Shown piece by piece: positions 6,097 to 14,273 of a DNA stretch of 25,904 nucleotides (position 1 is its first letter; each line of letters opens with the position of its first letter). Below the pieces are notes generated by a model, which was not told where the DNA came from, made no database searches, and saw nothing but the letters and a program-made list of their open reading frames with translations. Both the position numbers and the translations under genes were made by a program. The stretch is from positions 1 through 25,904 of the forward strand of contig JAUSPT010000034.1 of NCBI GenBank assembly GCA_030652805.1, written 5' to 3'. The DNA comes from a bacterium (lineage in GTDB: Bacteria > JAHJDO01).

Positions 6097-7635
6097 CTAT
6101 TTACCTCCCCAGAAGTTTCTATCCATACTTCTATATTGAATCGCTTCTGAGACATGAACAGCAGTTATATTTTTACCTTGCTCCAAATCTGCAATTGTAC
6201 GCGCAATCTTTAATATTTTATCATAAGCTCTCGCACTTAACCCTAAACTATTCATAGCGGCTTTTATAAGAGACTGAGTCTGACCGTCAAGCTGGCAATG
6301 CTCTTTTATATCCTTTGCATGCATATGAGCATTACAAAAAATCTTCTTCCCTTTAAATCTTTGCTGCTGAATCTTTCGAACATTATTAACTCTCTCTTTT
6401 ATTACAGCAGAGGTCTCAGACTGTGCCCTGTCAGATATCTCCTGATAATTAAGAGCTGGAACATCCACATGAATATCAATTCTATCAAGTAGAGGCCCGC
6501 TTATTCTAGAAATGTAGTTCTGTATTTGATACGGAGTGCATCTGCACTCTTTTACAGGATGTGTAAAATATCCGCATGGACATGGATTCATTGCTGCTAC
6601 AAGTGTAAATCTGGAAGGATATGTATGAGATGCACTTGCACGGGAAATAGTGACAACTCCATCCTCAAGCGGCTGACGCAGCACCTCAAGAGTATTGCGC
6701 TTGAACTCAGGAAGTTCATCTAAAAACAATACTCCATAATGAGAAAGGCTTACTTCTCCCGGCCTTACCAGCTGTGTGCCGCCAATTAGAGCTACATCGG
6801 AAATTGTATGGTGTGGAGCTCTGAAAGGACGGGTTGCTATAAGCCCCTTTCCCTGAGGAAGAATACCAGCAATAGAGTGAACCTTTGTTACTTCTAAACT
6901 CTCTTCTAAAGTCATATCCGGCATTATAGTTGGTATCCTTCTTGCAAGCATTGTCTTACCGGCTCCAGGAGGTCCAATCATCAGCATATTATGCCCGCCC
7001 CCTATTGCAACCTCTATTGCTCTCTTTACATGCTGCTGCCCTTTAACATCTGAAAAATCAACATCATACACAGAGTTCATTCTAAAAATCTCTTCAATAT
7101 CCACTTTAAAAGGCGGAATATCTTCTACCTGATTTATGAAATCCACTGTTTGCTGAAGGTTCTCTAATGGATATGTATCTATTTGATCTACAACGGCCGC
7201 TTCCTGAATATTATCTGACGGAACACAAAGAGAATGCCCGCTATTTTCCTTAATAGTTAACGCCATTGGTAAGACTCCTTTGGCAGGTCTAATATCGCCA
7301 TCTAGTGAAAGCTCTCCAACAAAACAATGTTTACTTATAGTTTTATCGCTTATATAGCCGGAACATGCAAGTATTCCTAAAGCAATAGGCAAATCAAACG
7401 CCGAACCTTCTTTTTTGAGTTCCGCCGGTGCCAGATTAATTGTTATCCTTTTTTGAGGAAAAACAAATCCTGAATTCTTTATCGCAGCTTTAACCCTGTC
7501 ACGGCTCTCTTTTACTGCATTGTCAGGAAGACCGACAATTGTAAGCGATGGCAAGCCGTTAGCTACATCAGTTTCTATCTCTATTAACTTGCCGCCAATT
7601 CCAACAACCGCACAACCATAAACTTTTGCAAACAT
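6097..7635 (-). CDS. comM: ComM/YifB family AAA+ ATPase (Mg-chelatase-like)
   Basis: 512 residues, the usual length. An N-terminal Lon-protease-like domain (1-170; [40 protein letters not shown]) precedes the AAA+ core with Walker A GPPGAGKT (221-228) and Walker B VLFLDE (302-307). Four cysteines in NPCPCGY and CRC (352, 354, 364, 366) look like a metal knuckle. The C-terminal Mg-chelatase lid ends about residue 505. In Gram-negative bacteria ComM is a hexameric branch-migration helicase that helps integrate DNA during natural transformation; the same role is inferred here. Its promoter appears to lie inside the repeat at 7643-7736. It is the first gene of the comM-ABC-guaA-unknown operon. 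Confidence 0.94.
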
Positions 7636-7642
7636 ATTCCCG

Positions 7643-7736
7643 CCGTATAAATCATCGTTATTCTATTATTATGGGGGTTGACACTCAAGAGCTATTCTGT
7701 GCCTATCACAACATAAGGACGAATATTTTTAAGTTT
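7643..7736. repeat. 3'-flank direct repeat, copy A
   Basis: Aligns without gaps to 12186-12279: about 84 of 94 bases are identical, including 21 in a row at 7705-7725. It covers the last 15 codons of the nuclease gene, its stop codon and the comM upstream region with the candidate promoter. The orientation is the same as copy B. Confidence 0.9.
7660..7688 (-). promoter_or_regulatory. Candidate sigma70 promoter for comM
   Basis: On the minus strand TTGAGT (7683-7688) and TAGAAT (7660-7665) are exactly 17 bases apart, and the comM start is 25 bases further on. The same pair at the same spacing is kept in the related copy before fabF, which supports function. It is not experimentally shown. Confidence 0.45.
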
Positions 7737-8567
7737 CTTTGGACTAATTCCCTTCACTTTGACTAAGCCATCTACTGTTTTATATGGACGTCTTGCTATA
7801 ATTCTCTCAGCCAAAACTGAACCGATTCCCTTGATAGACATAAGTTCTTCTTTGCTGGCAGTATTTAGGTTGAGTAAGCCTTGCGTGGATTTGCCTTTTT
7901 TTATCTGACTCTGTAATTCCTTTAATTTTTGATCCTCTCTGCGTTGTTTTGCGCGGTCCTCTGCAATCCGGTCCGGATCACTCTCTGACCAAATGCCGAC
8001 ACGTTTTAGCATAGCCGAAGTCTCCAGATCGCGGAGCCTTTCAATCATTTCACTGCGTAGTATGCCATTGGGTGTTTTTCTGCCTATCCCGTAATTACGA
8101 GCAAAACCATTTTTAACGAGCAGACTCGCCAGATCATCTCCGTCAGCAGTAGTGATGAACCCGTATACACGGCCTTTGGCTGACCTTCCCAATGCGCTTG
8201 CAAAGGCTGTATGAATAGTAAAAGGGTTAGCAAGTATATGTTCAACAAAAGTTTTTGCTTTGTTGCCAAAATGAATGGTGCGTGCAGCCTGCGATAATCC
8301 AAAATATCGTGTTTGCTCCCGTAATCTTCGCGCATCACTTGTAGAACTGGCAGAAGTTTCAGGACAGTCAATAAAATAAAGCCTTACATGGAAAGATTTC
8401 CCACCGGCTTCCACAAAGAAACTATCTCCATCATTTGCCGAATTACTCACCAATTTTGCATTGGAGAACATCTGCAAATCAGCGGCATATGATTGAAAAA
8501 TCCCTCCAAATATCAACACTGCTGTCAGCAAAAGAGTTCTGATGAGTGATTTGTTCAATTCATTCAT
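7692..8567 (-). CDS. Secreted SNase-like nuclease fused to ComEA-type helix-hairpin-helix
   Basis: 291 residues. A signal peptide (hydrophobic core about 11-27, likely cut after SYA) leads into a thermonuclease fold with the catalytic set intact by position: D46/D48 in NDGDS, R62, D67 and E70 in VRLYFIDCPE, R133 in KGRVYGF. A charged helix (about 195-228) links to a double helix-hairpin-helix (231-289; LLNLNTASKEEL, IKGIG, VKGIS), the DNA-binding module of ComEA. It should bind and cut DNA outside the cytoplasm. The ATG at 8567 starts a proper signal peptide 10 bases after the upstream stop; a TTG at 8594 is an alternative. Part of its 3' end is repeated at 12235-12288. Confidence 0.88.
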   Translation of the reverse strand: MNELNKSLIRTLLLTAVLIFGGIFQSYAADLQMFSNAKLVSNSANDGDSFFVEAGGKSFHVRLYFIDCPETSASSTSDARRLREQTRYFGLSQAARTIHFGNKAKTFVEHILANPFTIHTAFASALGRSAKGRVYGFITTADGDDLASLLVKNGFARNYGIGRKTPNGILRSEMIERLRDLETSAMLKRVGIWSESDPDRIAEDRAKQRREDQKLKELQSQIKKGKSTQGLLNLNTASKEELMSIKGIGSVLAERIIARRPYKTVDGLVKVKGISPKKLKNIRPYVVIGTE

Positions 8568-8577
8568 AATATAGAAA

Positions 8578-8991
8578 TCAGCCGTCTGAGCCAACCCCGT
8601 TAGACGGCAATGAAAGTCGGCTGGATTGCTTTGTTATAGGTTTTTGATCTATTTTTTTCTCGAAATTAATTATTCTTGATTGAGCTAAGGCGGCAAAAGC
8701 AATTACTGCTGTAAGAATTAGAATGCCCCAAAAATAAATTTTTGATGCTCGCAATAATTTATTACTTGAAGCGTTCATTTTTTCTCCGACACTACATAAA
8801 GCCTCTTTGAACGTAGCGATTTCCCCAGCAGTAAATTCAATGCTTTTTCCTAATTCATTAATATTCTTATTTGTTTCTGTAAATTTTTTATTTAGGACTA
8901 CTATGCTCTGAGTGGCTGCTTCTAGATAATCGCCTTTGTTATGATTATCATTAAACCTTCCTGTTGGCGTCTTAATTTTATCTTCTTCCAT
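8578..8991 (-). CDS. Small single-pass membrane protein, unknown
   Basis: 137 residues. A hydrophilic N-terminal part with a probable coiled-coil helix (about 25-78, many E/K/N) precedes one membrane span near residues 84-103 (IYFWGILILTAVIAFAALA) and a short basic/serine-rich tail. I recognise no family. The start overlaps the end of the preceding gene by 14 bases, and the nuclease start is 10 bases downstream, so the three are co-transcribed. The plan fits a membrane scaffold or an immunity or partner protein, but nothing in the sequence decides this. Confidence 0.7.
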   Translation of the reverse strand: MEEDKIKTPTGRFNDNHNKGDYLEAATQSIVVLNKKFTETNKNINELGKSIEFTAGEIATFKEALCSVGEKMNASSNKLLRASKIYFWGILILTAVIAFAALAQSRIINFEKKIDQKPITKQSSRLSLPSNGVGSDG

Positions 8992-9496
8992 ATTTATTTT
9001 CCCTATAAGTATTACAGTTTTTATTCATTAGATGAATATATCCATGTTTTTGTTGGGGATATTCTAATATAAATTTTTGATCTTCTGCTTCCCAAATAAT
9101 AAAGGACTGTTCTGACGAACTCGGATTCCCAATAAATTCAATAAGTTTTTCTTCAAGTTTTTTTAAGGATATTTCGGCAGCCATTTTATTTTGAATTATT
9201 TGAAAGGTAAGCTTTATCAATTTATTTTCTTTGAACCATAAGTAGGCAGAAGTGCCAAACATTATTTCAGTACCAGCCGTACTGTCTAAAATAGGATATA
9301 TTGTATTTTCGAAGTCGTCATTCAGGTATTTTAGTCCGCAGTTTTTTGACCACCATACAATTTCATCTTTAGCGGGCTTTACGAGTAAACGATCGAAAAA
9401 TCCAACCTTTTTGAAATCATGTTTTTTAAATTTTTCTTCATTTAGTTCTTGATCCAAAAATATGGGATAATTATTTACTCTTAAATTTAATTTCAT
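8978..9496 (-). CDS. Unknown soluble protein, first gene of accessory block A
   Basis: 172 residues from the ATG at 9496 (GGGG ribosome site 9 bases before). Earlier in-frame starts at 9511 (ATG) and 9523 (GTG) are possible, but they lie inside the conserved leader repeat. No signal peptide or membrane span is seen. The composition is aromatic and acidic with strand-rich segments (FGTSAYLWFKENKLIKLTFQ) and a C-terminal KFILEYPQQKHGYIHL. I recognise no family. It lies directly behind a candidate promoter and is followed, with a 14-base overlap, by the small membrane protein and then the nuclease. It has no counterpart in block B, where a NYN gene takes the same place. Confidence 0.68.
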   Translation of the reverse strand: MKLNLRVNNYPIFLDQELNEEKFKKHDFKKVGFFDRLLVKPAKDEIVWWSKNCGLKYLNDDFENTIYPILDSTAGTEIMFGTSAYLWFKENKLIKLTFQIIQNKMAAEISLKKLEEKLIEFIGNPSSSEQSFIIWEAEDQKFILEYPQQKHGYIHLMNKNCNTYRENKYGRR

Positions 9497-9510
9497 AATT
9501 ATTTTCCCCA

Positions 9511-9566
9511 TAACATTAATCACTGGACGTTTACTGCTATTTTAACGCTACTATACTTAAAATTGC
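9511..9566. repeat. 5'-flank direct repeat, copy A
   Basis: Ungapped match to 12873-12928, 49 of 56 bases identical. It holds the -10 box and the untranslated leader of block A. The similarity stops upstream of the -10 region, where the two copies are unrelated. Confidence 0.85.
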
Positions 9567-9578
9567 TTAAAACCTCAA
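9550..9578 (-). promoter_or_regulatory. Candidate sigma70 promoter of accessory block A
   Basis: Minus-strand TTGAGG (9573-9578) and TATAGT (9550-9555) are 17 bases apart. The predicted leader to the ATG at 9496 is about 47 bases. The -10 and leader are shared with block B. Confidence 0.5.
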
Positions 9579-9607
9579 TAAAAATAGACAAAAGTGGTGA
9601 ACACCGT

Positions 9608-9670
9608 GTCATTGCGAACGAAGTGAAGCAATCTCAGAGATTGCCACGTCGCTACGCTCCTCGCAATGAC
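9608..9670. repeat. REP-like palindrome (GTCATTGCGA...TCGCAATGAC)
   Basis: 63 bases with perfect 10-base ends (9608-9617 and 9661-9670) and an inner hairpin, GCAATCTC/GAGATTGC, with a one-base loop (9628-9644). This is a well-known form of extragenic palindrome seen in many bacterial genomes. It lies between the block A promoter and the flavoprotein gene. Confidence 0.75.
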
Positions 9671-9708
9671 GGCTTTGAGCTTCCTCGTTAACGTTGTTGG
9701 CATTTATG

Positions 9709-9789
9709 TTGTAGGGGTTCAATATCTTGAACCCTTTTTATCTGCAACATCACCATTATTAATGGGCACAAAATATTGTGCCCCTACAA
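9709..9789. repeat. MITE-like element with 9-base terminal inverted repeats
   Basis: TTGTAGGGG (9709-9717) pairs with CCCCTACAA (9781-9789). Inside each end sits a perfect 8-base stem: GGGTTCAA/TTGAACCC (9715-9734) and GGGCACAA/TTGTGCCC (9764-9783), each with a 4-base loop. The first stem is followed by TTTTT and could terminate plus-strand transcription. With 9608-9670 it fills most of the 340-base gap at 9524-9863, which otherwise holds only the block A promoter. Confidence 0.65.
9715..9740 (+). terminator. Possible intrinsic terminator, plus strand
   Basis: 8-bp stem GGGTTCAA/TTGAACCC with loop TATC followed by TTTTTA. Plus-strand genes do not end nearby, so it may only be part of the repeat element. 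Confidence 0.3.
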
Positions 9790-9863
9790 ATATTGCCAAA
9801 TAATTCTTTGCGTTCATGTGTGCAAATTGTCACATAGTAATATCTGGATTCTGCATAATTTTC

Positions 9864-10931
9864 TTATGCTTCATTGAGTTCGGATAGAAGTTCATGGATA
9901 AGTTCTTTAACAGTAACAATCTTATCAACACGATACGCATTCTGCCCGCAGAAAATGAGGCCGTGGTCCACATCACCAAAATAGGAATTCACAAGAGCCT
10001 GTGCAATACAATATCGCGCTTTGTCGACTTGACAGACTGTAAGACATCTATAGGGACACTTTATCTTCAGTTTTCCTTTAACTTCAAGGTCCTTTAAAAA
10101 ACGGTTATTTATCGCCCGTCCAGGCATACCAACAGGACTTTTAATGATAACAATGTCATCTTGCTTGGCATCCAAATAGGCTTGCTTGAATTCGCGGGAC
10201 ACATCACACTCTTCGGTACAGACAAAACGGGTTCCCATCTGAACACCTGAAGCGCCCAGGGAAAGCATTCGCGCAATATCTTTTCCGTTATAAATACCAC
10301 CTGCGGTGATAATAGGAATTTTCTTTCCGTATTTGTCTTCATAGGGTTTAATAGCTTCTAGGACTTCAGGCAGAAGTTTTTCGAGGGAGTAATCCTCTGG
10401 ATGTTCCAGCTGTTCAGCTGAAAAACCGAGATGTCCCCCGGCCAGTGGTCCCTCCAGGATAAAGCCATCCGCGGTTCTTTCATACCGTTTGTCCCAGGTC
10501 CGCAGGATAAATTCTGCAATTCTGGCAGAACTGATGATGGGCACAAGATTTACACTGGTATCCTGGACTAAAGCCGGAAGTTTAGTTGGCAATCCGGCGC
10601 CGAATACAATCATTTTAATTCCTTCTTGTACTGCGGTTTTAATCAGATCGTCTACGTTGCTGAGCGCACCCATGAAGTTTACTGCGAGGTGGCCATCTGT
10701 CATATTCCTGGCTTTACGGATCTCTCTTATAAGTGCTTCCCGTGATATTCTTTCATATTCCTGTTTTGAATCCTCCAAATCTCCCAGACCAATACTGGAG
10801 ATGGTGCCAATGCCACCTTCGTTTGCTACTGCTGAAGCCAGCGAAGCAAGAGAAACTCTGACGCCCATACCTCCTTGAACAATAGGAATATTTGCAGATA
10901 TATTTCCGATCTGAAGTTTAGGAATTTTCAT
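9864..10931 (-). CDS. Nitronate monooxygenase/FabK-like flavoprotein
   Basis: 355-residue FMN-binding TIM-barrel protein: VQGGMGVRVS (18-27), NFMGAL, EGPLAGGHLGF (160-170) with the family histidine, TAGGIYNG (209-216) and LGASGVQMGTRF (225-236) for phosphate binding. A cysteine cluster, C292-x3-C296-x3-C300-x7-C308, is present as in a subset of this family, perhaps binding metal or Fe-S. Members are either nitronate monooxygenases or enoyl-ACP reductases (FabK). The 14-base overlap with fabF upstream favours a fatty-acid or related acyl-ACP role, but the sequence alone does not settle it. No signal peptide is seen. Confidence 0.85.
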   Translation of the reverse strand: MKIPKLQIGNISANIPIVQGGMGVRVSLASLASAVANEGGIGTISSIGLGDLEDSKQEYERISREALIREIRKARNMTDGHLAVNFMGALSNVDDLIKTAVQEGIKMIVFGAGLPTKLPALVQDTSVNLVPIISSARIAEFILRTWDKRYERTADGFILEGPLAGGHLGFSAEQLEHPEDYSLEKLLPEVLEAIKPYEDKYGKKIPIITAGGIYNGKDIARMLSLGASGVQMGTRFVCTEECDVSREFKQAYLDAKQDDIVIIKSPVGMPGRAINNRFLKDLEVKGKLKIKCPYRCLTVCQVDKARYCIAQALVNSYFGDVDHGLIFCGQNAYRVDKIVTVKELIHELLSELNEA

Positions 10932-12174
10932 TTATATCTCCATATTTCTTAATTATGAGGCAAGCATTGCCTCCACCAAAACCAAACGAATTACTCATTG
11001 CCGCATTTAAATCAAGCGATTCAGCGCCATTGGTAACATAGTCAAGAGGACAATCAGCATCAGGTTCTTTATAATTAATGGTTGGCGGGATCATACCAGT
11101 AAACACACTCATTACAGTCGACACGAAATCCACAGACCCTGCGGCTGCCATAAGATGACCAATCATTGATTTTATTGAGCTGACCTTTAAGTTTTTTGCA
11201 TGTTCGCCAAATACTTTTTTAATAGCTATACTCTCACATTTGTCATTTAAAACAGTGGATGTGCCATGCGCATTGATATATCCTATTTTTTCAGCATCCA
11301 TATCAGAGTCCTGCAACGCCGCTTGCATAACTCGGATCATGCCATCGCCCTCGGGTTCTGGAGCCGTAAAGTGATAGGCATCTGCCGTATTGCCGTATCC
11401 GGCGATTTCAGCATAAATTCTTGCGCCTCGCTTGAAAGCATGTTTCAGATTTTCCAAAACAACAATCCCGGCTCCTTCCCCCATCACAAAACCATCACGA
11501 TTTTTATCAAAAGGTCTACTGGCATTTTCAGCGCAATCATTTGGAGTCATGGATCGTGTGGCGCAAAAACATCCATAGGGGAGCGGGGTTATACATGCTT
11601 CGGAACTACCTGCGAGCATGATGTCGGCATCCCCTCTCTGAAGAATCCGAAAAGCATCGCCAATGGCGTTTGATCCTGTAGAACAAGCCACAGAGAGAGC
11701 AGAAAGGGGACCTTTTAATCCATATTTAATGGAAACCATGCTTGCTGCCATATTGATGAGCAGCTTGGACACAAAAAACGGACTTAAACCTTTGGGTCCA
11801 CTTTCTTGAAGTATGGAATACCCATCTTCGATTGTCTGTGAACCCCCAATGCCGGAACCGATGATGACACCTGCCCTGTTTTTGTCAAATGAGAAAGATT
11901 CCAATCCTGCGTCTTCAATTGCCATTGCAGATGCAGCAATTCCAAATTGTGTGAATCGATCCATACGCTTTGCTGATTTTTTGTCAATCCATTCTTCAGC
12001 CTGAAAATCTTTTACCTCAGCTGCGAGCTTAGAACGGAAATCTGTCACATCAAAATGAGTAACTTTCGCAATTCCGTTTCGCCCGGCATTTAATCCTTCG
12101 CAAAAATCCTTTACACCTATACCAATCGGGGTTACAGCGCCCAAGCCTGTGATAACAACCTGATGTTCGTTCAT
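10918..12174 (-). CDS. fabF: Beta-ketoacyl-ACP synthase II
   Basis: 418 residues from the ATG at 12174, the normal size. The condensing-enzyme triad is complete: C164 in SVACSTGSNAIG, H303 in NAHGTSTVLND and H340 in KSMIGHLMAAAGS, with the glycine-rich SFGFGGGNA near the end. It elongates acyl-ACP with malonyl-ACP. Starts further upstream (12189, or 12231 inside the repeat) would add residues the family lacks. No strong ribosome site is seen; GGGA lies nine bases before the chosen ATG. It overlaps the flavoprotein gene by 14 bases. There is no fabD, fabG or acpP nearby, so this is a stand-alone pair, possibly for a specialised acyl chain. Confidence 0.93.
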   Translation of the reverse strand: MNEHQVVITGLGAVTPIGIGVKDFCEGLNAGRNGIAKVTHFDVTDFRSKLAAEVKDFQAEEWIDKKSAKRMDRFTQFGIAASAMAIEDAGLESFSFDKNRAGVIIGSGIGGSQTIEDGYSILQESGPKGLSPFFVSKLLINMAASMVSIKYGLKGPLSALSVACSTGSNAIGDAFRILQRGDADIMLAGSSEACITPLPYGCFCATRSMTPNDCAENASRPFDKNRDGFVMGEGAGIVVLENLKHAFKRGARIYAEIAGYGNTADAYHFTAPEPEGDGMIRVMQAALQDSDMDAEKIGYINAHGTSTVLNDKCESIAIKKVFGEHAKNLKVSSIKSMIGHLMAAAGSVDFVSTVMSVFTGMIPPTINYKEPDADCPLDYVTNGAESLDLNAAMSNSFGFGGGNACLIIKKYGDINENS

Positions 12175-12185
12175 GATAAGAAATC

Positions 12186-12279
12186 CCATATAAATTATCG
12201 TTATTCTATTATTATGGGGACTGACAATCAAGGACTATTCTTTGCCTATCACAACATAAGGACGAATCTTTTCAAGTTT
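12186..12279. repeat. 3'-flank direct repeat, copy B
   Basis: Partner of 7643-7736 (about 89% identical, no gaps). The copy continues to 12288 after a 44-base deletion relative to copy A. Here it places its promoter-like boxes in front of fabF. Confidence 0.9.
12203..12231 (-). promoter_or_regulatory. Candidate sigma70 promoter for fabF
   Basis: Minus-strand TTGATT (12226-12231) and TAGAAT (12203-12208), 17 bases apart, 29 bases before the fabF ATG. It matches the comM promoter candidate base for base in the -10 box and in spacing. Confidence 0.45.
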
Positions 12280-12288
12280 TATATGGAC
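12235..12288 (-). pseudogene. 3' remnant of the SNase-HhH gene
   Basis: Read on the minus strand, the last codons give LEKIRPYVVIGKE and a TAG stop, against LKNIRPYVVIGTE and TAG in the intact gene at 7692. Upstream, 44 bases are missing relative to the intact copy; the join lies in a GTTT present at both ends of the missing piece (7733-7736 and 7777-7780), and GTTTTATATGGAC then continues to 12288. Nothing further upstream resembles the nuclease gene. This is a decayed copy, not an expressed reading frame. Confidence 0.85.
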
Positions 12289-12368
12289 ATCGGAAATCAC
12301 CGGCGTATTTACGCGTCCTGTGGTACTAGTTCAATCCTCAACGACTTGTTATAAACTTCTTAACTTCT
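12289..12368. other. Short GC-richer segment of unknown origin
   Basis: 80 bases between the NYN stop and the nuclease remnant. It includes GCGTATTTACGC (5-bp stem) and CGG/CCG arms around a 6-base loop. No reading frame or known RNA is recognised. It is absent from block A. Confidence 0.3.
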
Positions 12369-12863
12369 TTACACATTTGTCTTTCTTGGTGCTTTATATA
12401 CAAACCAATCTTCTTTGATTATTTCATGAAAATAGTCTGCTTCATCAATTAATATTTTGGCAGTTGTTTCCCTTACCGCAGCAATTTCTACCCTTACACC
12501 TTCCCCTTTCAGATGCAAAACCAAATCCACAAAATCCGAATCCCCTGACATAATGATAATGGTGTCAACCTTTGAAGCGAGTTGCGTTGCTTTGATAGAA
12601 AGTGGAATATCGGCAGATTTATGACACGGAATAACAGAGCCATAATAGTTTTCATGTAATCTATCAGCGAATTTCGAAGATATGGACTTGCCTTCCCTAA
12701 AATAAATTAGCCTGTTTAATCCTCTATTATTTAGCAATTTCGGGATTAACTTATCAAAATTAATCATTGCGTTTTTTGTTTTAGAGAGTTCATGGATACT
12801 CCGTTCAATATTGTTCCCATCGCATAGTATAGCTACCGATTGATTAATTAAAATATTTTCCAT
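12369..12863 (-). CDS. NYN-domain (LabA-like) putative ribonuclease
   Basis: 164 residues of a PIN-like NYN domain. It has CDGNNIE with D15, KSADIPLSIKATQLA (82-96) with K82/D85, and IIIMSGDSDFVDLV (102-115) with D108/D110, so the acidic metal-binding set is complete. Relatives of the LabA/DUF88 type are thought to be RNases. I use the ATG at 12863 with AGGA six bases before it; an ATG at 12878 within the leader repeat is possible. It sits alone behind its own candidate promoter. It takes the place held by two unrelated genes in block A, and a nuclease remnant follows it. Confidence 0.87.
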   Translation of the reverse strand: MENILINQSVAILCDGNNIERSIHELSKTKNAMINFDKLIPKLLNNRGLNRLIYFREGKSISSKFADRLHENYYGSVIPCHKSADIPLSIKATQLASKVDTIIIMSGDSDFVDLVLHLKGEGVRVEIAAVRETTAKILIDEADYFHEIIKEDWFVYKAPRKTNV

Positions 12864-12872
12864 AATTGTTCC

Positions 12873-12928
12873 TAACATTAATCATTGAACGTTTACTGGT
12901 ACTTTAATACTACTATACTTGAAATTGC
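12873..12928. repeat. 5'-flank direct repeat, copy B
   Basis: Partner of 9511-9566, 49 of 56 bases identical, same orientation. Contains the -10 box and leader of the NYN gene. Confidence 0.85.
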
Positions 12929-12940
12929 ATTGCCATACAA
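12912..12940 (-). promoter_or_regulatory. Candidate sigma70 promoter of the NYN gene
   Basis: Minus-strand TTGTAT (12935-12940), 17 bases, TATAGT (12912-12917). The -35 sequence differs from block A although its position is kept. It lies just downstream of the zincin stop. Confidence 0.5.
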
Positions 12941-12949
12941 TTTCTATTA

Positions 12950-13300
12950 TTAGCGAGCTATCTCTTCCTCAGTCATTCCAAAATGATGCCCAAGCTCATG
13001 CATAACCACTTCTTTAACTCTTTTTTTTATTTTATCTTCATTGCTGCATAACATTTCAATAGGCTCTTTGTAAATAGTTATCATATCCGGAAGTACGTTT
13101 GAATAATACACCCCCCTCTTCTTTAGTGGAATACCTTGATATAATCCGAGAAGAGTCATGGGACTCTTTATTCCCTGTTTTCTGAGTATCTCCTTAGAGG
13201 GTCTGTCTTCTACTGATATACTCACATTATCCATTCTCCGCTGGAATTTCTCTGGTAGTCCGTCAACAGCTTCTGCTACGAGTTTTTCAAACTTATTCAT
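12950..13300 (-). CDS. Zincin-like metallopeptidase family protein
   Basis: 116 residues matching the small 'possible zincin' family (PF06262 type): KFEKLVAEAVDGLPEKF at the start, LGLYQG and PDMITIYKEPIE in the middle, and the zinc-binding MHELGHHFGMTEEE (100-113; H101, E102, H105) at the end. It is cytoplasmic by sequence. Substrates of this family are unknown. Its start overlaps the upstream secreted-protein gene by 8 bases in the same ATGAATAA form seen at the ABC/guaA junction. It is the last gene of the operon that begins at 18356. Confidence 0.88.
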   Translation of the reverse strand: MNKFEKLVAEAVDGLPEKFQRRMDNVSISVEDRPSKEILRKQGIKSPMTLLGLYQGIPLKKRGVYYSNVLPDMITIYKEPIEMLCSNEDKIKKRVKEVVMHELGHHFGMTEEEIAR

Positions 13301-14273
13301 ACATTACTTTTACTTGCTTGAAGTAGAGAGGAGATTTGTCAGAAGAGAGAACCCTTTTAAATACAAGCTTATTTTCTTTCTTTACTAAGTCAGATATATC
13401 AAAAACAAATGAAGAATAGTCCCTTGATTTAGGCGCTTTCCAGAGCCCATAACTTGTAACATTTGATTCGCCAGTTGTGCGTTTATTTATCAACCTTTTT
13501 ATGTCTTTTATTTGAGTGCCGTTAATCTTAATTATCAAAGCACTTACATAACCTGCTGGTTTCCTTGACTTGGTCCTTACCAAAAAAGAAAGGTACGCTT
13601 CTTTGACTTCCGGCAGAGCAAAGGAAAAACTAACTGGTTCCAGAGCAGTCGCTTTGACTTCCCTTTCCTTGCGAGTTAAGTTAACTTCATTCTTAGGATG
13701 CTCGGTTTTAGCCCTCGTAGCAGAGCTGATCTCTTCTTTTCGAGGTTTAACCTTTTCTTCTGCTTTCTCCGGGCTTGGTTCCTTGTCTCCTGATTCATAG
13801 ATTATCTTTGCTTCCTTAAGAAAAAATGGAGCTTCAGACGAGGAATGAGGAACTCTGAGAAATATGATCCTGTTCTTATTTTTAATTAAATCAGTAATAT
13901 CAAAGACAAATAAGGAATAGTCTCCGGAAACAGGAACTGTCCAGATGCCATGAGCATTACACCAATCATTTGTTTCTTCCTCTACCTTGTATTTGAATGG
14001 TTTATTTATCAATCTTTCTAACGTCTTTATTCTAGTCCCATTAATGTGTATTACTAAGCCCTTTGTATATCCTTTGGCTTTTTCAGGTTCTGATCTTATA
14101 AGAAACGATAGATATGTTTTGCATGCATCTTGTTTGACGAATGAAAAAACAGCTGGTTTATCGACTGCCAGTCTTAATTCCTCAACTTCTGGACTAAGAA
14201 CAAGTTCCCCTGCCATTGAAGAATTTCCTATCAGAACAAAACTTAAAACAAGCAATGAAATTCTTAGTATCAT
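13293..14273 (-). CDS. Secreted protein with two copies of an unrecognised beta domain
   Basis: 326 residues. A signal peptide (about 1-22, cut after SMA or nearby) is followed by two similar domains, about residues 40-160 and 213-326, joined by a K/E/P-rich linker (161-210). Shared blocks are YLSFL[IV]R, INGT[RQ]IK, RLINK, G[IL]W, DYS-FVFDI-DL and the closing K-IIYE or KVMYE. The pattern suggests a carbohydrate- or protein-binding beta sandwich (DNRLH-like lectin plan), but I do not recognise a family and no catalytic motif stands out. It overlaps the acetyltransferase gene upstream by 4 bases (ATGA) and the zincin downstream by 8, so it is embedded in the operon. Confidence 0.8.
   Translation of the reverse strand: MILRISLLVLSFVLIGNSSMAGELVLSPEVEELRLAVDKPAVFSFVKQDACKTYLSFLIRSEPEKAKGYTKGLVIHINGTRIKTLERLINKPFKYKVEEETNDWCNAHGIWTVPVSGDYSLFVFDITDLIKNKNRIIFLRVPHSSSEAPFFLKEAKIIYESGDKEPSPEKAEEKVKPRKEEISSATRAKTEHPKNEVNLTRKEREVKATALEPVSFSFALPEVKEAYLSFLVRTKSRKPAGYVSALIIKINGTQIKDIKRLINKRTTGESNVTSYGLWKAPKSRDYSSFVFDISDLVKKENKLVFKRVLSSDKSPLYFKQVKVMYE

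Follow-up and report, generated by a model that had tools for sequence, protein, structure and literature searches.

Two accessory-gene blocks in a 25,904-nt stretch of bacterial DNA (contig JAUSPT010000034.1; the whole stretch is called the window here) are best explained as two neighbouring exchangeable accessory-gene slots among many, both fronted by a genus-specific putative promoter-leader element and exchanging genes by recombination, a reading that we hold with a probability of roughly two in three. The minus strand carries, in this order, zincin, element B, NYN, a decayed SNase end with a promoter copy, fabF and NMO, followed by repetitive extragenic palindromic (REP)-like repeats, element A, genes A1 and A2, SNase-HhH, a promoter and yifB. 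The first-pass annotation of the window had reported that blocks A and B share an upstream and a downstream repeat and carry different genes. A repeat search recovered both pairs, at 7643-7736 and 12186-12279 (94 nt, 89% identity; E=4.6e-30 for the second copy) and at 9511-9566 and 12873-12928 (56 nt, 88%; E=7e-14), beyond chance in each case, and the gene contents were as described: NYN in block B, and an SNase gene with an HHH_3 domain plus two genes without a family in block A. Two accounts had been offered, and the upstream and downstream repeats are different kinds of thing. An old segmental duplication followed by cargo exchange suits the 94-bp repeat, in which a gene end and a putative promoter were duplicated locally, but not the 56-bp repeat, which lies outside that duplication. 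An exchangeable slot with the repeats as recombination arms suits the upstream arm, different species carrying different genes, mostly behind it, at about ten orthologous slots, but not the downstream arm, which is confined to this one locus.

The window belongs to a genome of 2.0 Mb (G000; 102 contigs, 95.6% complete), and the comparison covered five species of one genus (G000 to G004), with no further relative of the phylum among the searched genomes. BLAST of a 68-bp region around the upstream repeat found many copies in all five genomes, and the 56-base repeat is a member of a dispersed family of about 85 bp that combines a predicted promoter with a 5' leader. A sequence model made from 17 copies and run over the five genomes (E<0.01) identified 76 sites, 17 of them in G000 and about fifteen per genome; at block A the match reaches about 9593 (9510-9593), beyond the upstream boundary drawn earlier. 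The consensus, TTTTGTCTATTTTTATTGAGGTTTTAAGCAATTTGAGGTATGGTAACATTAAAGTAGAAGTGACTGTTCAATAATTAATGTTA, was read by eye as a -35 box TTGAGG, a 17-bp spacer, a -10 box TATRGT and a leader of about 40 nt, and across 71 aligned sites conservation climbs sharply at TTTTTATTGAGG and stops at ATTAATGTTA. Three forms occur, namely promoter plus leader, promoter only and leader only, and the leader-only copies can begin directly at the stop codon of the preceding gene (pckG in locus L239, at 4132; also L249 and L267). Identity between elements that front different genes in different species reaches 96% over 76-79 bp. Outside the genus, no above-chance match was found in 55 genomes of other phyla, nor any copy in 975 kb drawn from the loci of other organisms except at one locus that is G003 itself. 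The full pattern was absent from viral contigs, and a viral origin was rejected, as the ten matches to a short leader pattern were unrelated sequence (nhmmer E 0.14-0.77) with no element around them. A leader helix, AACATTAA/TTAATGTT, pairs in 87.5% of cells, compared with 19-54% when slid, with only one double change; RNAalifold detected no covariation and Rfam gave no match, so that a riboswitch or RNA thermometer is not favoured. Several dispersed REP-like palindromes (GTAGGGGCACAATATTTTGTGCCC; CATTGCGAACGAAGTGAAGCAATCTC) lie at 9567-9863, and the same kinds are found ahead of many other elements.

The next gene is co-directional with the element at 67 of the 71 distinct sites, and at three of the other four the gene called is a short one shadowed by a longer antisense frame. 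These first genes are nearly all different and mostly species-specific accessory genes, only NYN and a tautomerase being shared between species at high identity. Their families include Eco57I-type methylases, a DNA methylase of another type, ParE, BrnT, a nucleotidyltransferase, a YhcG nuclease, DUF5677, Cas3-HD, a kinase, a sulfatase, a URO-D-like protein, the tautomerase, EamA and NYN, and about half have no Pfam family match. Genes resembling REP-associated tyrosine transposases were also noted after or among the cargo (L274 355-957, L296 1283-1783 and the 3' flanks of L249, L252 and L261), one called from a weak Y1_Tnp match and the others by eye.

Comparison of oriented loci between species revealed ten orthologous places at which the cargo differs between the same core genes. 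After NMO (place a), G000 carries A1, A2 and SNase, G002 TrmO and a 124-aa gene followed by SNase, G003 an Eco57I-type methylase (with fabF-NMO elsewhere in that genome) and G001 an AAA ATPase and an 80-aa gene, and G004 is empty; the element is present there in G000, in G002 (promoter half) and in G003. After zincin (place b), G000 carries NYN; G003 (L177, DAOVHI010000008.1) has the 80-aa gene, MNT and HEPN and then an element with a 152-aa gene, G004 (L124, JAUWOV010000005.1) has XRE-HipA, the 80-aa gene and a DUF4143-like ATPase, and G002 is empty at a clean junction. The loci of G003 and G004 were matched by sequence, and their families at place b, like the names of purN, plsY, gpsA, waaA, lpdA and lipB, were assigned by eye. 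Contents also differ among G000, G002 and G003 between pckG and DUF2779 (c), and three contents were found at L242/L245/L240 (g). Each with its own element, URO-D (G000) and EamA (G003) alternate beside purN (d), DUF5677 (G003) and other genes (G004) between plsY and gpsA, with gpsA on the right in both (e), a 322-aa gene (G003) and a phosphorylase (G004) after a KilA-N-like gene (f), and a gene of 169 aa with further genes (G000) and one of 230 aa (G001) after waaA (h). The remaining places hold a 247-aa (G004) or a 323-aa gene (G001) at L090/L261 (i), and, again with an element in each species, PHP (G000) or URO-D (G002) between lpdA and lipB (j). At places e, g and i the similarity of the left flank enters the element, with small indels, and ends within or at it. 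The many different genes between the same arms that the first-pass annotation had asked for were hence found for the upstream arm, mostly behind the element, but not for the downstream one. It had also named matches of the flanks to unrelated genome-wide repeats, or repeats confined to this locus, as evidence against its view; the upstream flank is indeed a genus-wide repeat, half of that proviso to the letter, and this is not taken as a refutation because the same repeat carries the slot-like behaviour. The 80-aa gene encodes a membrane-protein-like product (MTVDILRGVLGWCAVIN..) without a family and was seen in three species, at slot A or slot B, beside different neighbours. For gene A1, neither the four congeners nor 35 other genomes yielded a relative.

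The NYN gene has a copy at an unrelated locus of G002 that is 97% identical in nucleotide sequence (13 differences in about 505 nt, counted by eye), and between the two species the leader of the element shows 13 differences in 48 positions, with no relation between the flanking sequences. Elements of the vertically inherited tautomerase are about 91% identical, also counted by eye. With near-identical coding sequence, a divergent leader and unrelated flanks, the gene has come to stand behind clearly different element copies in the two species. A plasmid origin of NYN was tried and rejected, as no match was found.

It is plausible that the element supplies transcription and a 5' leader to whichever gene follows, and that cargo is swapped by homologous or homology-assisted illegitimate recombination, with the element providing homology on the left and the flanking gene on the right; additive inserts would leave a duplicated gene end of 75-105 bp. 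Several points weigh against this picture. The promoter is predicted from the -35/-10 spacing and from position, the boxes, like several gene names, being assigned by eye. Immediately left of the element the sequence is not the same at places d and h, and therefore element and cargo may have arrived there jointly rather than by a change of cargo behind a fixed element. Slots without the element exist, at this locus in G001 and G004 and at the pckG slot of G003. Gene-end duplications are only about threefold enriched, with seven in 464 kb compared with four in 917 kb of control loci, and all five genomes are draft metagenome assemblies whose contigs break at repeats. A 140-bp sequence at L239 8524-8664, which is 100% identical at several other places in G000, mostly near contig ends, is probably the terminus of an insertion sequence present in many copies, which interrupts the assembly. 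ComEC (PF03772) was detected in all five genomes, but the same model also matches 10 of 14 control genomes, so competence in the genus is only possible, and the presence of yifB/ComM at the locus may be coincidental.

A regulon, in which the element would serve a single transcription factor or an alternative sigma factor as binding site and leader, and the accessory genes would have been recruited independently by promoter evolution, is an unlikely alternative. It would account for the direct repeats conserved with the spacer between the -35 and -10 boxes (TTTTAAG CAA TTTTAAG or TTGAGG..TTGAGG) and for a leader conserved beyond the needs of a plain promoter. However, no orthologous target set is shared across species apart from NYN and the tautomerase, the leader-only copies sit between genes directly after an upstream stop codon, and near-identity at different genes points to copying rather than convergence. 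A bolder extension of the slot reading, that the element would form the fixed half of a gene-capture system spread over the chromosome without an array, serving as a repeated promoter-leader docking site whose 3' end (ATTAATGTTA) would be the recombination boundary for a non-integron recombinase or a dedicated homologous pathway, seems to us equally unlikely.

In the five congeners the 94-bp repeat occurs only before yifB and before fabF. It consists of the 3' end of SNase-HhH and the putative yifB promoter, copied before fabF, and its non-coding 52 bp (12186-12237) can be read by eye as -35 TTGATT/TTGAGT, a 17-bp spacer and -10 TAGAAT, which reads as a promoter of fabF in this copy and of yifB in the other. 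The SNase 3' end reported for block B is present, but only as the last 14 codons (12238-12279) and a 16-bp scrap (12276-12291); in the intact gene this scrap is situated 44 bp further upstream, so that what is left in block B is decayed and internally deleted. A simple old segmental duplication, by which block B would be a copy of block A whose genes were later lost or swapped, is favoured by the extent of this repeat across coding and promoter sequence, by the decayed SNase end retained in block B and by the two SNase genes of G003. We nevertheless consider it quite unlikely, because it accounts for the downstream repeat only: the upstream repeat is a dispersed element, on which ground duplication of the whole of block A into block B was rejected; the block B SNase end is nearer to the G002 copy (94.7%; coding part 42/42 identical) than to that of block A (89.4%; three sites differ in the coding part); and block B is absent from G002, where the promoter copy stands before fabF without NYN and without the SNase end. 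In G003 the start of an SNase gene follows zincin at a contig end and a second SNase gene precedes yifB; the contigs seen show no fabF-NMO between zincin and yifB, which makes an older SNase duplication likely. The simplest history of the downstream repeat would begin with two SNase copies between zincin and yifB; fabF-NMO would then have entered between them, leaving the 94-bp repeat as a gene-end duplication, and the two intervals would have gained and lost cargo separately. The NMO/FabK-like protein (9864-10931) is 75-85% identical across genomes labelled as many different candidate phyla, which exceeds the expectation for vertical descent.

Direct repeats of gene ends, 75-105 bp long, are also found around or next to other inserts (some gene names assigned by eye). 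A 77-bp pckG 3' end is present in two copies around HTH-nucleotidyltransferase and HEPN-like genes in G002 and is single in G000 and G003, a 105-bp coaX 3' end surrounds HicB-HicA-like genes in G004, an 80-bp DUF2779 5' end occurs twice in G004, and a further 75-bp repeat lies at the NYN locus of G002; one of the seven such duplications is a REP-like repeat. The two DUF2779-start stubs (L298 1939-2018 and 3187-3266) are 95% identical, lie in tandem slots and adjoin Vsr-like and SocA-like genes, and the full DUF2779 gene was not seen in the 5.5 kb examined. In G003, a 51-bp direct repeat that by eye resembles a tmRNA 3' end (L243 2633-2683 and 3602-3652) may mark a small island. Insertion with long target duplication, reportedly treated by Nobusato, Uchiyama, Ohashi and Kobayashi in Gene in 2000, is similar in that the insertion of accessory genes is accompanied by a long direct duplication of the flanks. 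To our knowledge it involves no shared promoter element, whereas many inserts here carry the promoter-leader element, and the duplicated stretches are gene ends that are 80-95% identical. Its cargo is mainly restriction-modification, compared with toxin-antitoxin and other genes here, and the published case compares strains of a single species, Helicobacter pylori, with restriction-modification genes as the inserts (PMC1643837, PMC3154945). In the window, the corresponding test on the long direct repeat found that G002, without the insert, keeps only the promoter half.

Among other known systems, chromosomal integrons are similar in their promoter and leader and in their interchangeable, mostly single-gene accessory cargo of toxin-antitoxin genes and unknowns. 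They differ in having one array rather than many dispersed places, and in that the element here stands before the gene, not after it; runs are limited to two to four elements (L239, L240), with no single attI platform and cassette array. Over the five genomes no integrase exceeded the 265-bit cut-off of TIGR02249, the best matches (109+87 bits) leaving the middle of the model unmatched and weak matches occurring in 14 of 14 control genomes as well. A motif and folding scan for attC (RYYYAAC..GTTRRRY plus internal hairpin; no covariance model was used) over the window and 38 loci gave eight candidates, none judged attC-like, and no site recurs across the 3' flanks of 63 cargo genes. An integron was thus rejected, despite the conservation end ..ATG TTA and half-attC-like cargo ends such as TATAACAAGTCGTTGAGG after NYN, and the notion that the element works like a distributed integron platform has a low probability. 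Mobile promoters and horizontal regulatory transfer likewise involve a short regulatory sequence recurring at non-orthologous places, but these concepts describe promoter switches before a conserved gene, whereas here it is mostly the gene that changes behind a conserved promoter. Defence-island hotspots share the variable cargo between conserved flanking genes; we know of no common 5' element in the usual ones, whereas here one element family marks many slots, and the cargo is one to few genes. That the element is a non-autonomous mobile element, similar to a miniature inverted-repeat transposable element, inserting by itself before genes is very improbable: it is dispersed and genus-wide with sharp ends, and near-identical copies lie at unrelated loci of different species, but it keeps an almost constant orientation and distance relative to the next gene, neither terminal inverted repeats nor short target duplications were seen by eye in the 71 aligned copies, and copies hold orthologous positions while the gene behind them differs.

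Table. Features of the two slots and their surroundings, in minus-strand order (window coordinates unless a locus is named)
Feature	Position	Strand	Remarks
Zincin-like metallopeptidase gene	12950..13300	-	left edge of slot B
Putative promoter-leader element B, before NYN	12872..12953	-	repeat core 12873-12928; model match E=4.4e-16; -35 TTGTAT, 17-bp spacer, -10 TATAGT; leader end ATTAATGTTA
NYN-domain gene	12369..12863	-	cargo of slot B; PF01936, 1.4e-21
Decayed SNase-HhH 3' remnant	12238..12291	-	last 14 codons and 16-bp scrap; 44-bp internal deletion
Putative yifB-type promoter copy	12186..12237	-	now before fabF; boxes read from sequence
fabF (beta-ketoacyl-ACP synthase II)	10918..12174	-	between slots A and B; elsewhere in G003
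NMO/FabK-like gene	9864..10931	-	3' end is left edge of slot A
Dispersed REP-like repeats, NMO to element A	9567..9863		palindrome 9709-9789
Putative promoter-leader element A	9510..9593	-	repeat core 9511-9566; model match E=3.9e-21; -35 TTGAGG, 17-bp spacer, -10 TATAGT; leader end ATTAATGTTA
Gene A1	8978..9493	-	about 171 aa; no family
Gene A2	8578..8991	-	137 aa; no family
SNase-HhH gene, intact	7692..8567	-	SNase domain (PF00565) and ComEA-like HhH (HHH_3)
94-bp repeat, intact copy	7643..7736	-	SNase 3' end and putative yifB promoter
yifB/comM	6097..7635	-	right edge of slot A
80-aa gene, copies	L068 2265-2507; L124 7266-7508; L074 1438-1680		

Elsewhere in the window, a DUF3344-like protein (13293-14273) is built of two similar halves, residues 32-160 being 43% identical to the DNA of residues 201-326. 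The window contains no tRNA, and a tRNA-anchored island was rejected for that reason.

Accessory-gene slots are themselves of a known kind, and we rate as new their marking by a shared promoter-leader element. Newly acquired genes often lack a promoter that the host can use, and a standard promoter-leader at many places would, if the slot reading is true, be a general answer to this problem that needs no integron. In practice the element is a useful marker as well, as searching related genomes for it picks out accessory genes, many of which belong to toxin-antitoxin or restriction-modification families or to no known family.

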